DNA of 62,927 bases from Candidatus Saccharimonadota bacterium (GTDB lineage: Bacteria > Patescibacteriota > Saccharimonadia > Saccharimonadales > Saccharimonadaceae). The stretch is taken from NCBI GenBank assembly GCA_016282495.1, contig JAEEKR010000013.1:1-62927 (forward strand), given 5' to 3'. Shown one piece after another: positions 14,287 through 41,000 of the stretch. A model generated the notes under the pieces. That model ran no database searches. It worked only from the letters and a program-made list of their open reading frames with translations, and was not told the DNA's origin. The translations under genes and the position numbers were made by a program. The first letter of the stretch is position 1, and every line of letters begins with the position of its first letter.

Positions 14287-16983
14287 TTAGAACTTCATAG
14301 TCTTGCTACGTCTGTAGAGGCGGTAGAAGATGGCGGAAGTGATGGCAACAACAGTGCTAGCTATGATGAATGGAAGAGCAATAGAAGTGTTTTTGGTAGC
14401 ACCACCAAGGATGGTCTTGTCGTTACCACCAGTATTTGGAACTTCGGTACAACTAACTTTGGCATAGGTAGCTTTATAGGTAGCTTCTCCTGTAACGGTT
14501 TCAATTTCTGGATCCCAGCCGGCAAATTTATAGGTACAGTTTTCAACTACTTTTTCTATAGGAACATCTGGGGCATCTGGAGTTTCGCCGTATTCCACTT
14601 CTTGTTCTTCAATGATTTTCTCGTCATCAATAAATTTAATTGGATATTTTCTAGTTTCTTCGACGTAGGTAGCACGATATTCGGCGTCTCTAGTAACGGT
14701 ACTGTGGGCGGTAAGTTCTGGGCTATCACCTATAGATTCATAGCCAGAGAAAGTGTATTGATATTGCGCGGTAGAAGGTTTGGTAGGGGCTGGTGATGGA
14801 GTAATAATCTCGTCGTTATAGTGATAATCGGATTTAGTGAGCAATATGGTTTCTTCGTCTTCATCATAGAAAGTGATGGTGTAATTGATGAACTTCGGCT
14901 CATATTGAGCTTTATAGGTAGCGGCTCCGGTAACTGGTACGATTTGTTTATCCCAGCCAGTAAAGTTATAGGTGCAGGTATCATCGGCGGGCCTGGTTGG
15001 AGTGCCGTTATAGGATGGCGTAGTGCCATAATTATAATTAGTGGACTGGAGCACAGAATCGTTCCAGTTCACGAATGTAATTGGATATTGCTGTATTGTT
15101 GCTGTATAGGTGGCGGTGTAAGTGGCGCTATCAGTAACGGTGCGAGGGCTAGGAAGGGCTGGGCTCCAACTATTAAAGGTGTAGTCATACCCTGGCTCGG
15201 AGGTAGATGATGGTTTGGTAGGGTTGGCCGGAACGGTGATAGTATCGCCATAATGGTAGTCTGTTTTCTTCGAAATTTCTGAATCATCATCATTCTTGAA
15301 GGTGATGGTGTAGTCGATGAGCGTAAAGTGGGCAGTGAAAATATAGTCATCTTCGATTGAAATATTTTTAATTTGGTTGATCGCTCCTGGATCTGCTGGA
15401 TCTTCTTGAATTAAAGGAACATCCTCATAAGTGATCTCTCCTGTTTCGTCTTCTGGATAGATAATCTTTTTGCCTGTCCAGTGTGAAAACTCATATTTTG
15501 CATTTTCTTCTAATGTTGGCAAGCTGGTTATGTTTTCTCCTACATAGATGCTGTCCTTGGTTTTTGTTAAACTGACATCTGCGATTTCGTTATCCTGTTC
15601 ATCGACGGCTTTATAGGTCATATCGTAAGCTTCTGAATAAAAATTCCAAGTGGAGGCAGCATTTTGGTGAAAACCAAAGGTGACATCAAAAGTGTTTGAT
15701 TCAGCTGAAGATTGATTGTTCTGTGCGTTCTTCAGCTTTGCAAAAACTGTAGCGTGACCCCATGTACTATAGTTTTTATTAAACTTATCACTAGAAACAT
15801 AATATGATTTAGAGTTGTTGTACGAATAAGAAGAAAAGATTGAGGTAAAGCCATTCGAATCGGTATAGAGATAGTTTTGTTCATTATTATCAGATGTAGC
15901 TCCTGTATTTTCTTGCGGGTGCGCATATCTACCTATATAGTTTCCAGAACTATCATATTTTTCTATAGGCTTTCGCGCGTTAGTACTAAAACTATTGATT
16001 TGTGGAACTCCGTTTTCGTCATACACGATGACCGGATTATTTGGGTCTGTTCGGTCGACTATTTCTTCACATTCTGTACCATATTTTGCGGTTGTTCCAT
16101 TACCTAAATCTTCTTCTTTGTCTAGAACGCATTTTTTTGCATAAAGTTCTGATTCTCCAGTTTGCTGGTTGTATATGTCTGTTTTGTGAATACGAATAGA
16201 TTGTGCGCCGTCAATGTCGGCAATTTCTAGATAAGTAGTGGAGGGGATATTATAATCAACTTCTTCGTTCTTTAAAATTTCGAATCTCAGTTTGACAAAT
16301 AGGCCAGTGCCGTCTCGAACCCTGGGAATGTCAACATTATTATATATATCTAGAATTGAAGTATATTGAGTGCATTCTCCGTGCTGGTCTTTTTCGGTGC
16401 ATTCATTAATATCGTATCTTGTTTCGACGAATGTGGACGTGGTTGACACTACAAATGGTACATTTTTAGACGGATTTGTATTATTTGTTTCTAGAACTGT
16501 AGCTTTAATTCTATACCCGTCACTGCTAGTATAGACCCAAGAGGTTTCCTTGATTGTAGCGCTTTCATTTGTGGGGAGCCAATAGTCCTCACCGTTAAAA
16601 CCAGGCGGAACAAGGACAAAGCCTACTGCTAGATTATTCTCTCGTGGTTTTATCCCAAAGTGCCAGGATCTATAAAAATTTGTATCTTCATTGGCAGAAT
16701 CGTATTCGGAGGAAAACTCAGCTGTCCCGCTTTGATTCCACGATGTGAGACGTGACGCTGTCTCGTTGTCGAATAGCTGAATTGGGCTTCCGTCTTTACC
16801 AGGGGTACCGAGCGGAGTGGCGTTGTCTGTATCATAACTAATGGTGATATCGTCTACGCTTCTAATGTCTTCGGCGTGGGTTTGATTGTCGAAAGATTTA
16901 CGGATTACAAAGCCTAAGCAGATACAAAAAACAAGGGCAGATAGAGCTAGGAATAATTTTTTTTTGGTCTGTTTTAGTTTCAT
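14287..16983 (-). CDS. Surface protein with InlB-type repeats and PNTG-like anchor
   Basis: An 898-residue exported protein. A lysine-rich start and hydrophobic segment (about 10-27) form a signal peptide. The N-terminal ~500 residues are an unrecognised beta-rich region. At least four Listeria-Bacteroides/InlB B-type repeats follow (about 560-840), each with a YTITF or YPIKF strand, a YHYGD-like turn and an F-x-GW motif. The end has VPNTGG (848-853), a membrane helix (about 871-890) and a basic tail RRSK, which is the layout of a sortase signal with a variant motif. It is probably an adhesin. It has its own promoter and sits exactly between the two lepA halves, which suggests insertion. Confidence 0.8.
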   Translation of the reverse strand: MKLKQTKKKLFLALSALVFCICLGFVIRKSFDNQTHAEDIRSVDDITISYDTDNATPLGTPGKDGSPIQLFDNETASRLTSWNQSGTAEFSSEYDSANEDTNFYRSWHFGIKPRENNLAVGFVLVPPGFNGEDYWLPTNESATIKETSWVYTSSDGYRIKATVLETNNTNPSKNVPFVVSTTSTFVETRYDINECTEKDQHGECTQYTSILDIYNNVDIPRVRDGTGLFVKLRFEILKNEEVDYNIPSTTYLEIADIDGAQSIRIHKTDIYNQQTGESELYAKKCVLDKEEDLGNGTTAKYGTECEEIVDRTDPNNPVIVYDENGVPQINSFSTNARKPIEKYDSSGNYIGRYAHPQENTGATSDNNEQNYLYTDSNGFTSIFSSYSYNNSKSYYVSSDKFNKNYSTWGHATVFAKLKNAQNNQSSAESNTFDVTFGFHQNAASTWNFYSEAYDMTYKAVDEQDNEIADVSLTKTKDSIYVGENITSLPTLEENAKYEFSHWTGKKIIYPEDETGEITYEDVPLIQEDPADPGAINQIKNISIEDDYIFTAHFTLIDYTITFKNDDDSEISKKTDYHYGDTITVPANPTKPSSTSEPGYDYTFNSWSPALPSPRTVTDSATYTATYTATIQQYPITFVNWNDSVLQSTNYNYGTTPSYNGTPTRPADDTCTYNFTGWDKQIVPVTGAATYKAQYEPKFINYTITFYDEDEETILLTKSDYHYNDEIITPSPAPTKPSTAQYQYTFSGYESIGDSPELTAHSTVTRDAEYRATYVEETRKYPIKFIDDEKIIEEQEVEYGETPDAPDVPIEKVVENCTYKFAGWDPEIETVTGEATYKATYAKVSCTEVPNTGGNDKTILGGATKNTSIALPFIIASTVVAITSAIFYRLYRRSKTMKF

Positions 16984-17067: not shown

Positions 17068-17622
17068 TTAGGAGATTTTTCTAGGGGCGGGAGCACGTTC
17101 GATGATGGCATCTAGAACTTGTTCAACATTTAAACCGGTTTTGGCGGAAACACCGATGATCTCATCTTCTTTGCAACCAAGAAGGTTTATAATTTCCTTT
17201 TTGACTTTTTCGACATCAGCGGCGGGGAGATCTATCTTGTTGATAACTGGGATAATGTAGAGATTTTGTTCGAGCGCAAGATAGACGTTGGCAAGAGTTT
17301 GGGCTTGAATGCCCTGCGTGGCATCAACAACTAAGACGGCGGTTTCAACGGCCTGGAGAGAACGAGAGACTTCATAAGAAAAATCGACGTGACCGGGAGT
17401 GTCGATAAGATTTAGCTCGTAGCCTTTATAGTGCATCTGAACTGGGGTGAGTTTAATCGTGATCCCCTTTTCACGCTCGAGTTCCATGGAATCCAAAAGT
17501 TGCGCTTTCATTTCGCGTTTTTCGACAGTGCCAGTGATTTCCATCATACGATCGGCAAGAGTGGATTTGCCGTGATCAATATGGGCGATGATACAAAAAT
17601 TACGAATTTTATCGGTGTTCAT
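17068..17622 (-). CDS. lepA: LepA (EF4) GTPase-domain half
   Basis: A 184-residue protein equal to the complete G domain of EF4: G1 HIDHGKS (14-20), switch I region with REKGITIK, G3 DTPGHVDF (74-81), G4 NKID (128-131) and G5 SAKTG (159-163). It stops at RAPAPRKIS, the natural linker before domain II, where the second half (13027-14250) resumes without loss. An upstream ATG in the same frame lies inside tilS on the other strand and is unlikely; MNTDK at 17622 matches the family start. The promoter is divergent from tilS and shares its -10 palindrome. I infer a split but possibly functional EF4. Confidence 0.92.
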
Positions 17623-17627
17623 TGTGG

Positions 17628-17637
17628 TATAATTATA
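17628..17637. promoter_or_regulatory. Overlapping divergent -10 boxes of lepA-N and tilS
   Basis: The sequence TATAATTATA holds TATAAT on the + strand (17628-17633, 8 bases before the tilS ATG) and TATAAT on the minus strand (17637-17632, 9 bases before the lepA ATG). Only one polymerase can bind at a time. Confidence 0.65.
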
Positions 17638-32426: not shown

Positions 32427-33125
32427 CTATTCAGCTAGTTTCTCGTCGATCTTTTTGCGCATGAATTCCATAAAACCAGTTTGAGAGCTATTTTCGTACC
32501 AATCTAGCATCTCGCCATCCATATAAAAGGCCGGGGTGGCGGATATTTTGACTTTTTCGGCTAGCCCTATATCGAAGCTTACTTTAGCGGCAACTTCTTT
32601 GCTTGCCATGTCGGTTTTATATTTTTCTATATCGCCTTTGCCTTCAGTGACTTCACTAAAGTATCTAACAAAATAACCGCCTCTTTCTGACGCACTTGCA
32701 TATTCCCATTCTGATTGATTAGCAAAAAGGAAGTCTGCATATTCTTTCCAATACCCTTGTAAACCGGCAGCTTCAGCTGCTGCAGCAGCGGCATGGGCGT
32801 TGTTGTGATAGCTCAAAAGATAACTTCGATACACAATACCGATTTTGTCGCCATATTCGTCTAGCAGTTTGTTTACCCATGGATTGACTGAAGCACAACC
32901 TGGGCACTGATAATCTGCATATTCATAGATAATGACTTTTGCATCTTTATTGCCTTTGACGTGATCGGCGATACCGCCATTGTCATCATTGGCTTCCATG
33001 ATTGAATATTCATTATATTTAGTATAATCAACGGTTTGTTCGTTTTTTTTGGCCGTAGTCCAAATTGCAAAACCAGCGAAGGCAGCAACAACTACGCCAA
33101 TGATAATCCCTGTAACTTTATTCAT
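32427..33125 (-). CDS. Membrane-anchored DsbA-like thiol oxidoreductase
   Basis: A 232-residue protein: one N-terminal membrane helix (about 5-23) and an exported thioredoxin-like domain with CPGC (74-77), an alpha-helical insert and the cis-Pro region KISATPAFYMDG. It belongs to the DSBA/BdbD-like group that forms disulfides in exported proteins; the cysteine-paired surface proteins and pilins encoded nearby are plausible clients. Longer starts run into the divergent gene; ATG 33125 is six bases after TATAAT (33137-33132), within a perfect palindrome shared with the CBS gene. Confidence 0.88.
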   Translation of the reverse strand: MNKVTGIIIGVVVAAFAGFAIWTTAKKNEQTVDYTKYNEYSIMEANDDNGGIADHVKGNKDAKVIIYEYADYQCPGCASVNPWVNKLLDEYGDKIGIVYRSYLLSYHNNAHAAAAAAEAAGLQGYWKEYADFLFANQSEWEYASASERGGYFVRYFSEVTEGKGDIEKYKTDMASKEVAAKVSFDIGLAEKVKISATPAFYMDGEMLDWYENSSQTGFMEFMRKKIDEKLAE

Positions 33126-33144
33126 GCTATAATTATAGCATGAA
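33121..33144. promoter_or_regulatory. Perfectly palindromic divergent promoter
   Basis: A 24-bp perfect palindrome contains both start codons (CAT 33123-33125 and ATG 33140-33142) and two overlapping TATAAT boxes (33128-33133 on +, 33137-33132 on -), each six bases from its start codon. Confidence 0.75.
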
Positions 33145-33772
33145 ACCGAAGTTGAACAAGTTGATGAAAAAATTTGTGAAGTGGGTTGATCCGAAGTTAG
33201 AGAAATACCGTAAAAAGGAAGAAAGCAAGCCATATACTCCAAAAGATTTGGAGGATTTACTTGGGATTTTAAAAAGAACTCCAAAAGATGTATTAAACTC
33301 TCGCCAAAAAAAAGTTATTGCAAATGCGATGTCTTTTGATTCTAGAAAAGTCAAAAGCATCATGCTAAAAAAAGAAGATATCGTTTTTGTGCATGACCAC
33401 GATATGCTGGGGCCATTAATGCTCGACCGACTTTATCGTTCTGGTTATTCTCACTTTCCAGTGCTTGATAAAACTAAAGATGTGGTGGGGGTTTTGCACA
33501 CTGATACTTTTAATAGCCTACAAAACAAAAACACGGATCGCGTGGAGAAATATTTGGACCCAGAAGTATACTATATTAATGAGAACTATTCACTAGAACA
33601 AGCTTTGGCAGCATTTGTGAGAACAAATTGTTATTTCTTTATTGTGATCAACAAGTTCGAAGAGATTACTGGGCTTTTGCTATTTGAGGATTTGATATAC
33701 TACCTACTTGGGTATATGCCAGAAGATAGTTTTTCGCAAGATGCGGATAAACGCATGGTTGCAAAACGATAA
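33140..33772 (+). CDS. CBS-pair protein (CorC-like, no membrane domain)
   Basis: A 210-residue soluble protein. A basic N-terminus (about 1-30) is followed by a short helical region and two CBS motifs (about 72-195: VKSIMLKKEDIVFVHDHDML, YSHFPVLDKTKDVVGVLHTD, YFFIVINKFEEITGLLLFED). This resembles the cytoplasmic part of CorC/HlyC-type transporters without the DUF21 membrane domain. CBS pairs usually bind adenine nucleotides. It shares a symmetric promoter with the DsbA-like gene and should be leaderless. Confidence 0.8.
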   Translation: MKPKLNKLMKKFVKWVDPKLEKYRKKEESKPYTPKDLEDLLGILKRTPKDVLNSRQKKVIANAMSFDSRKVKSIMLKKEDIVFVHDHDMLGPLMLDRLYRSGYSHFPVLDKTKDVVGVLHTDTFNSLQNKNTDRVEKYLDPEVYYINENYSLEQALAAFVRTNCYFFIVINKFEEITGLLLFEDLIYYLLGYMPEDSFSQDADKRMVAKR

Positions 33773-38024: not shown

Positions 38025-41000
38025 CTATTTACGTTTTCGACAACGAATTATTACGCCTGATGCTATAAAAACAGCGACAATAAATCCAATAATAATGGTA
38101 GACTTAGCTGCAGATGGGAGTATTTCTTTGAAACCAAGATTCCCTACACTTGGGCCTTCGTTAGAATCTTCGCCGTCTGTGTTTGGCACATTTGGGCCAT
38201 CTGGATTGTCTGGTGATCTTTCCCTAACTATAAAGTTGGTCATGACAATAACAGGGTCATCGAGCGCTGGCTCATCAAAGTAGACATCAATGGAGTGTTC
38301 ACCTAATTTTAATCCGTCTAGATAATCCTTTTGTAGGTTTACGACTGTGCTGCCTTCTGTGATGACATAGTCGACATTCTCCTCAATCTCTTCGCCATCA
38401 ACTTTGACAGTATGAGAAAAGTACTTTTTGGCGACGTCGATACTCAAAATAGATTTCTCATCAATGTCGATATCGAAAGTTTGGTTTTCTAACCATTCGT
38501 ATTCAATTTCGTAAGGTTCGGCATTATAGGTAGCAACATACACTGTGTCACCAGTGACGGCTGTTTCTATTTCTTTATCCCAACCCGCAAAAGTGTACTT
38601 GTAGGCTGGACTATTTTCGCGCGTTGGGTTTGATGGAGGCGTAACACGATCGCCTGGATGATAACCTTCTTCTTCGAAAATTATTGTGTCGTCAAAATCT
38701 TTAAAAGTGATGACAGCGTCTTCGTAAATTCGTGCACGATCGATGGTGTTCTCAAAACTAATTGGTATCACTGAATCATTTTGATATCCGATCGTTATAG
38801 TCGGTGTTCCTTCGCCATTACCAAAAGTTACGAACTGATGCGTCTCCGATTCATCTCCATCAGACATAGTCATATTGCCAACTGCAACTTCTAAGTTTTT
38901 TGGATTTTTAAATAGGGCCTCATTAATATAGACGGCAGATTCGTCAATAGAAGCAGATTCGCCTTCTTTAGCGATCATAAGCGATACTGGCCACGGAGTG
39001 ACTTCGTCGAATTCCCCCATCATTTCTTGCCTCATATAGTCACGATGATACTTACGCATCAGATCGAGGTAAACGGTTAATAGGTTCTCCGCACAATCGT
39101 TTTCATCGCTAAAGCCTGCTTTATAGTAGAAAGTATTTCCTTCTTCATCTATTCCTTGAGCGACTTTGCTATTAATAATATTTCCTTCTTCATCAATTAC
39201 ATTATATAGTGTGATAAATATAGGGTTTCCATCTTCATCTACGGCTATATCCATTGTACTCATATCGATTTCAGGAAGCATAACAGGATTGCCTTCTTCA
39301 TCGGTCATTGGAGCAAGAGTTCCATTATCTATGTCTATCCTCCAGGTTTTATAGGCGGCAAACATCATATCTGCTTCAGACATATCTTCACTAGAACAGA
39401 TTTCTGCAACTTCTTCTGGAGTACTTGGCATTTCTGATGCGATTTCTTCTTCGAAATTAGCCATGTAGTAATCTACTGTTTCATCTATAAGAGCTTCTTT
39501 TTCAATTACGTTAAATGATACGTCTCCGCCATTAATTTCTATAGCCGCACCACGTGAGGGCAGAGGCCCTCCAAGCGTATTTTCCATTTTTGCACGCAAT
39601 AATTCTGGTAGTCTTTCTGCGAGGTTTGTGTTACAATCTGCTTCGTCTACGAATGCTCCATACCCAAGCTGAGAGCTAAGCGCGCTTAGCTCTTCAAAAT
39701 CACTGACATTGGCGCATGTTTCAGCTATATTAATATTCGTAATTCCGTTGGAAATTATTTCGTCGATTGTCCCTGGATATAATATTGTGGACGGGGTTAC
39801 GCCGGCAATATTAGCCTTACCACCATTAAAAATAGCGTACCCATTCTCAACAATAAGCGGGCCATGGTCAAGAGCGGGATTAATTGATGTAACGTTTAAT
39901 TCTCCATCGTTAAGCAAGAAATAGCGCATAATCTCAAGCCCGTCGGTGACTATCGCATTTATACTGCCGCCGTTCATAATAAAAGAACCTGCGTTTATCT
40001 CATCGATTATCCCAGATATTTCGCCACCATTAATGATAATTTTGTCACTAGCCTCAAGATCGTCGCTCTCCATAATTAGCTTACCACCTTGGATTATTAA
40101 ATTGCCGCCATAGGCTTCGACACCGCCTTTGATAGTAGCGCCGTCGTAAATGATAATATCACCTTCGTATGAATAAACGTCATCATTAATCTCTCCTCCG
40201 TTTATAACAATCTGGCAGGATGATCGATAATTAGGGCACATCTTAATCTCACTTTCAATGGTTCCGCCGTTTACGATCATGTTGTCTGCCTGGATATTGC
40301 CGCTTACTATATGACCGCTTTCGATTATCAAGCTAGCCGCATCGGTAGCTTTAATAGAGTAATAAGGGTTTGCATAGGTGTCGTTGTTCCCCAATGTTCC
40401 TTCGCCAGATACTATGATTGGCGTGGTTGAGCTTGTTATTTGAGTATCATTCTCGCCGTTGATAACTAGATTAATTGGATCTGCGCCATTGTCGAATGTT
40501 ATGTTTGGCCCATTATAATTTTCTAGGGTGAGAGTATTAGAATTTTGGTCCCAAGAAATCGTTTCGTCGCCATCCACATCATATTCTTCGCCCGTAGCAT
40601 AGTAGACTTTATCGTCTTTAACGACCAGGTAGTTTTGGATGTATTTCCCATATATATAAGCCCTCCCATAGCTGGATCGGTCTATCGGCATATCTGGGGT
40701 AAAATCGATTTCATTACCAGACCCTTCGTACGAATACGAGGATAGCCTCAAACTGTCTAGTATACAGGAGTTGTCTGGGCTAGACGTTTTGATCTCAGTG
40801 GTGATTGTGGTCCCAAATGGTATCGTTTCGTCTGGATAATTAGTCATTTCGTCGCTATAATCGCCGCAATAGTGGGCGGTTACATGATAACCTTGTTCGC
40901 TGTCATAATACTGATAACTATCACTCATGTCGAAATGGACAGTTACTGGCTTACGAGTTACTCTCTTATAGATAAAATCATATTGCCCAACGGAACTTTG

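Follow-up and report, generated by a model that had tools for sequence, protein, structure and literature searches.

The perfect palindrome that separates two divergent genes in the window (the whole stretch of 62,927 nt that we analysed) is very probably a compact bidirectional promoter, in which two overlapping leaderless extended -10 promoters would be bound by polymerase in either orientation, the palindrome being a product of their geometry. Sequence statistics and comparative evidence give good support to the view that the two genes share one symmetric promoter, which works in both directions and contains their start codons. Its features are:

32427..33125, minus strand: DsbA-like thioredoxin-fold protein, 232 aa, with an N-terminal hydrophobic segment (Pfam Thioredoxin_4 4e-23, DSBA 2.7e-7)
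33121..33144, no strand: perfect 24-bp palindrome TTCATGCTATAATTATAGCATGAA, holding two overlapping promoters, predicted to be leaderless, and the first bases of both genes
33123..33125, minus strand: ATG of the DsbA-like gene, its A (33125) the predicted transcription start (from the sequence and the enrichment of TATAAT-N6-ATG)
33125..33133, plus strand: extended -10 TGC-TATAAT of the CBS gene, hexamer 33128-33133 (from the sequence and the genome's leaderless consensus, T-15/G-14 plus TATAAT)
33132..33140, minus strand: extended -10 TGC-TATAAT of the DsbA-like gene, hexamer 33132-33137 (from the sequence and the same leaderless consensus)
33140..33142, plus strand: ATG of the CBS gene, its A the predicted transcription start (from the enrichment of TATAAT-N6-ATG)
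33140..33772, plus strand: CBS-domain protein, 210 aa (Pfam CBS 1.3e-10)

A preliminary description of this DNA had reported a perfect 24-bp palindrome holding both starts of a divergent pair, each gene having TATAAT, six bases and ATG, with overlapping -10 boxes. Both observations are confirmed on the two strands at 33121-33144. The palindrome is the longest in the window, and either strand of it reads TGC-TATAAT-TATAGC-ATG. The two -10 hexamers face outwards on opposite strands and overlap by 2 bp (TATAATTATA), the arrangement by which a bidirectional promoter is recognised. On the plus strand, the CA at 33139-33140 is the complement of the TG in the opposite extended -10, and the predicted starts of the CBS and DsbA-like mRNAs would lie 15 bp apart. 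Beyond the palindrome's ATGs, the second codons are AAA and AAT. The further long perfect palindromes of the window, AGAGCTAAGCGCGCTTAGCTCT at 39672-39693 and AGCCCCGGAATTCCGGGGCT at 75-94, are GC-rich and differ from this promoter type.

The proposed identities of the two genes, DsbA-like on the minus strand and CBS on the plus strand, hold on the Pfam matches given above. The best NCBIfam matches of the CBS protein fall in GldE/CorC-type CBS regions, every one of them below cut-off, and its homologues are found in Candidatus Saccharibacteria genomes, many of ruminant gut origin.

Each half of the site follows the usage of the genome as a whole. The counts come from a 730,187-bp assembly of 42 contigs (89.6% complete), of which the window is contig 17, with genes taken as simple ORF calls. 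A TATAAT-like box stands 6-7 nt 5' of the ATG in about 20 of the window's 51 long ORFs, and genome-wide TATAAT-N6-ATG occurs 92 times, against 6 occurrences of the reversed control. Leaderless genes are marked in this way, by a -10 box that keeps a constant distance of 6-7 nt ahead of the start codon and is more frequent than in controls. Alignment of 37 TATAAT-N6-ATG promoters of this genome gives T-15 in 92%, G-14 in 89% and a pyrimidine at -1 in 92%, with no -35 element. We predict that TGN-TATAAT-N6-ATG is the organism's standard extended -10 promoter, starting at the A of the ATG of a leaderless gene. As both strands of the palindrome carry an extended -10 with the ATG six bases on, both mRNAs are predicted to be leaderless, and the site is two ordinary promoters of the organism, packed back to back.

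The symmetry follows from that packing. An outward pair of TGN-TATAAT-N6-ATG elements whose hexamers overlap by two bases must read CATGNTATAATTATANCATG, which leaves just the N/N' pairing and the palindrome's outer TT/AA free of functional constraint. Among offsets 0 to 5, checked by hand, a start-to-start offset of 4 is the smallest outward-facing one to allow two conflict-free TATAAT hexamers, and the dsbA/CBS site thus looks like the tightest outward start possible with two consensus -10 boxes. The packing works because the initiator CA (-1/+1) of each promoter complements the extended -10 TG (-14/-15) of the other. Consistent with this complementarity, the genus-wide set described below has C at -1 in 120 of its 150 half-sites, as against 46% of this genome's leaderless promoters generally. 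It is the geometry of two overlapping extended -10 leaderless promoters that accounts for the 24-bp palindrome.

This genome has three double-leaderless divergent sites, at dsbA/CBS, galE/exopolysaccharide sugar transferase and relA-spoT/rnhA. The galE site is the genome's second perfect 24-bp palindrome (TTCATGTTATAATTATAACATGAA), CATGCTATAATTATCTCATG is a near-identical further site, and 19-nt variants occur at a murC-like gene and at lepA/tilS. Among 33 divergent pairs in 264 kb, as defined by crude gene calls, three have 14 nt lying between the A's of the two ATGs and two have 19 (lepA/tilS being counted with the ATG nearest the site), and none of the 33 has an interval of 20-50 nt. At the last of these loci, lepA (elongation factor 4; window 17071-17622, minus strand) appears to be truncated, matching positions 2-183 of a 595-position model before its stop, with the next gene close behind. 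The truncated lepA and tilS have a common TATAATTATA promoter site at 17628-17637, and an 898-aa ORF without an NCBIfam match (14287-16983, minus strand) adjoins the truncated gene.

The arrangement recurs throughout the genus, by which we mean the grouping given by the genome database. Of 147 congeneric genomes, 49 contain CATNNTATAATTATANNATG, at 82 sites in all; in the same 147 genomes its reversed control has no match, nor has a register-shift control widened by one base per side. Among 237 Patescibacteria genomes from outside the genus, 2 contain it. The gene pairs at these sites are mutually unrelated: tsaE/murC-like (4 genomes), ung/tdk (3), glyS/ABC transporter (2), glutaredoxin/SpoU-type methyltransferase, glycosyltransferase/O-antigen-ligase-like and dnaG/unknown, most of these names having been read off translations without a family search. 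In four genomes, including this one, prfA and tRNA-Val(cac) stand head to head over a TATAATTATA-type site, with the reverse hexamer 12-14 nt upstream of the mature tRNA:

G000:C18:3352-3361 (L116), and also L147, L159 and L163: tRNA-Val(cac)/prfA sites

Among the matches listed for two-sided extended -10 pairs in 21 genomes, at least 58 have offset 4 and at least 15 have offset 7, and the remaining offsets between 6 and 22 have at most one pair each; judged by coordinates, many of the offset-7 pairs are the dsbA/CBS locus itself. Offset 6, at which the hexamers abut (TATAATATTATA), is nearly absent, in contrast to the common offsets 4 and 7, although the two hexamers would not clash in sequence there.

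We also followed the dsbA/CBS locus itself across relatives. Homologues of the CBS protein are present in 82 of 99 congeners, a divergent DsbA-like gene at 72 of 80 related loci, and back-to-back -10s between the two genes at 69 of those 80 (allowing one mismatch in a hexamer). The offset between the -10s is 4 at 21 loci, 7 at 26, 8 at 7 and 10 at 8, with a few others. The CBS gene is usually leaderless at offset 4, with a 3-nt leader predicted at offset 7, and the DsbA-like gene has in most relatives a leader of 20-30 nt with a Shine-Dalgarno box; locus L074 is apparently leaderless on both sides, and L045 nearly so. Mapping the offset-4 class onto the CBS tree takes 12 changes, and supported branches force no fewer than 8 of them. 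Conservation of the palindrome in related genomes, which the preliminary description had named as a check, thus holds for the back-to-back -10s and fails for the exact palindrome, given the repeated shifts of offset and the Shine-Dalgarno leader on the dsbA side in most relatives. That leader also makes leaderless translation of dsbA a local feature. Judged from these sequences, it is the putative two-way close packing that is kept at the locus, with the exact palindrome as one state among several.

Its presence at unrelated gene pairs makes the layout look like a space-saving promoter design of general use rather than a special toggle. It is possible, if doubtful, that the genus-wide sharing of leaderless promoters is itself a selected regulatory layout, with two strong, exclusive orientations that compete for polymerase and in this way set the ratio of the paired genes, or anticorrelate their bursts, without any regulator protein.

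The preliminary description had proposed a minimal toggle, in which polymerase can bind in one direction at a time and the DsbA-like and CBS genes would be expressed alternately or randomly. In its fuller form, this reading has the random expression differ between cells and the site selected for that behaviour. The overlapping hexamers do make simultaneous binding implausible, and consensus extended -10s on both sides could suffice for competition. At bidirectional bacterial promoters, polymerase binds one way at a time under steric constraints, as stated in PMC12825309. However, in the same work none of the five E. coli bidirectional promoters tested was active enough at its basal level for polymerases to compete, and interference reduced noise when one side was activated. 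Nor does either product look like a regulator: neither the DsbA-like nor the CBS protein matches a DNA-binding family in Pfam or NCBIfam (an undescribed activity is possible), and there is thus no sign of each product repressing the other's promoter, by which a toggle is defined. Furthermore, the identical layout serves many unrelated pairs, among them the housekeeping pairs ung/tdk, glyS/ABC transporter and tRNA-Val/prfA, the -10 offset at the dsbA/CBS locus shifts repeatedly, and competition alone does not confer memory. On these grounds we consider a toggle, or alternating expression of the pair, very unlikely.

It is highly improbable that only one direction is real, the reverse match coming from the near-self-complementarity of TATAAT and an AT-rich discriminator while dsbA is transcribed from elsewhere. 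A discriminator TATANC before the ATG does give a reverse TGN-TATAAT with few changes. However, full TGN-TATAAT-like elements persist on both strands in relatives while the offset changes, and two-sided sites are far above controls. The prfA sites lend indirect support to the reverse direction, because tRNA-Val needs a promoter there, and would make a useful control pair for two-way activity.

The perfect 24-bp symmetry, centred on both promoters, is of a kind frequent in operators, and the palindrome might be read as one, at which a dimeric transcription factor would repress the two genes. We give this reading scarcely any credence. In such an operator, symmetry and half-site spacing would be conserved beyond the promoter elements. 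Perfect 20-bp palindromes occur at 14 of the 75 listed sites (of 82 in the genus), against 13.96 expected when half-sites are re-paired at random, and on these pairing statistics the dimeric-regulator operator is rejected. The offset also varies from 4 to 10 bp among relatives, with repeated changes, and the same core stands at unrelated pairs. Symmetry beyond the promoter elements being at chance level, none of it has been selected, and the palindromy is a by-product. Chance origin of the 24-bp palindrome is likewise rejected, since none of 60 window-sized first-order Markov sequences reached that length and the genus holds 82 sites against 0 for the reversed motif.

The shared bidirectional promoter that we favour would operate as follows. 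Two TGN-TATAAT-N6-ATG promoters overlap at what appears to be the closest outward offset that keeps both hexamers perfect (TATAATTATA), and RNA polymerase, presumably with the housekeeping sigma factor, would bind in one of the two orientations. Transcription would start at the A of one ATG or the other, yielding a leaderless mRNA for either the DsbA-like or the CBS protein. As the hexamers overlap by 2 bp, and given the constraints described in PMC12825309, the orientations probably exclude each other sterically in each binding event. Over time both genes would be expressed, with competition arising only where one side is nearly saturated. The palindrome would then be an outcome of geometry, neither a repressor operator nor a bistable switch.

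A genetic toggle switch consists of two mutually repressing genes. The dsbA/CBS site resembles one in having a divergent pair whose promoters are probably not occupied at once, but has no repressor product, no extra operator and no feedback loop, and there is thus no reason to expect two stable states. Leaderless genes, in those parts of the Deinococcus-Thermus study (PMC12340547) and the bacterial survey (PMC3160421) on which we draw, likewise lack both a Shine-Dalgarno sequence and a -35, and have their -10 a few bases 5' of the start codon; differing from what those parts describe, the extended -10 (TGN) is near universal here, and two starts are fused head to head. A literature search found nothing on point for leaderless genes in Saccharibacteria or Patescibacteria, and the promoter type described here offers start-codon annotation rules for this group.

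The closest known systems are the bidirectional promoters described by Warman, Grainger and co-workers (PMC12825309, PMC10268837), which share with our site divergent transcription, symmetric or overlapping -10s, exclusive polymerase orientations and a spacing set by reciprocal base pairs. The start-site spacings common in mapped bacteria are 18, 10 and 23 bp, with variation allowed and the spacing not strictly defining (PMC12825309), whereas 15 bp is predicted here from the ATG positions. The reciprocal pair also differs, being extended -10 TG with initiator CA in place of -7T with -11A, and, unlike the mapped examples, our site has perfect hexamers, both start codons inside it and predicted leaderless mRNAs. 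The literature search returned nothing on point for leaderless bidirectional promoters in bacteria. The suggestion that no example this compact had been described therefore stands for the inclusion of both start codons, of which the search found no instance, and falls for the general kind, which is known. What the site combines are two known elements, leaderless starts and bidirectional promoters, so that 20 bp hold the two promoters together with their start codons. The bidirectional geometry that it predicts is a distinct one, with 15-bp spacing and CA/TG reciprocity, and the sites of this genus form a natural set of paired promoters in which polymerase competition can be studied without regulators.
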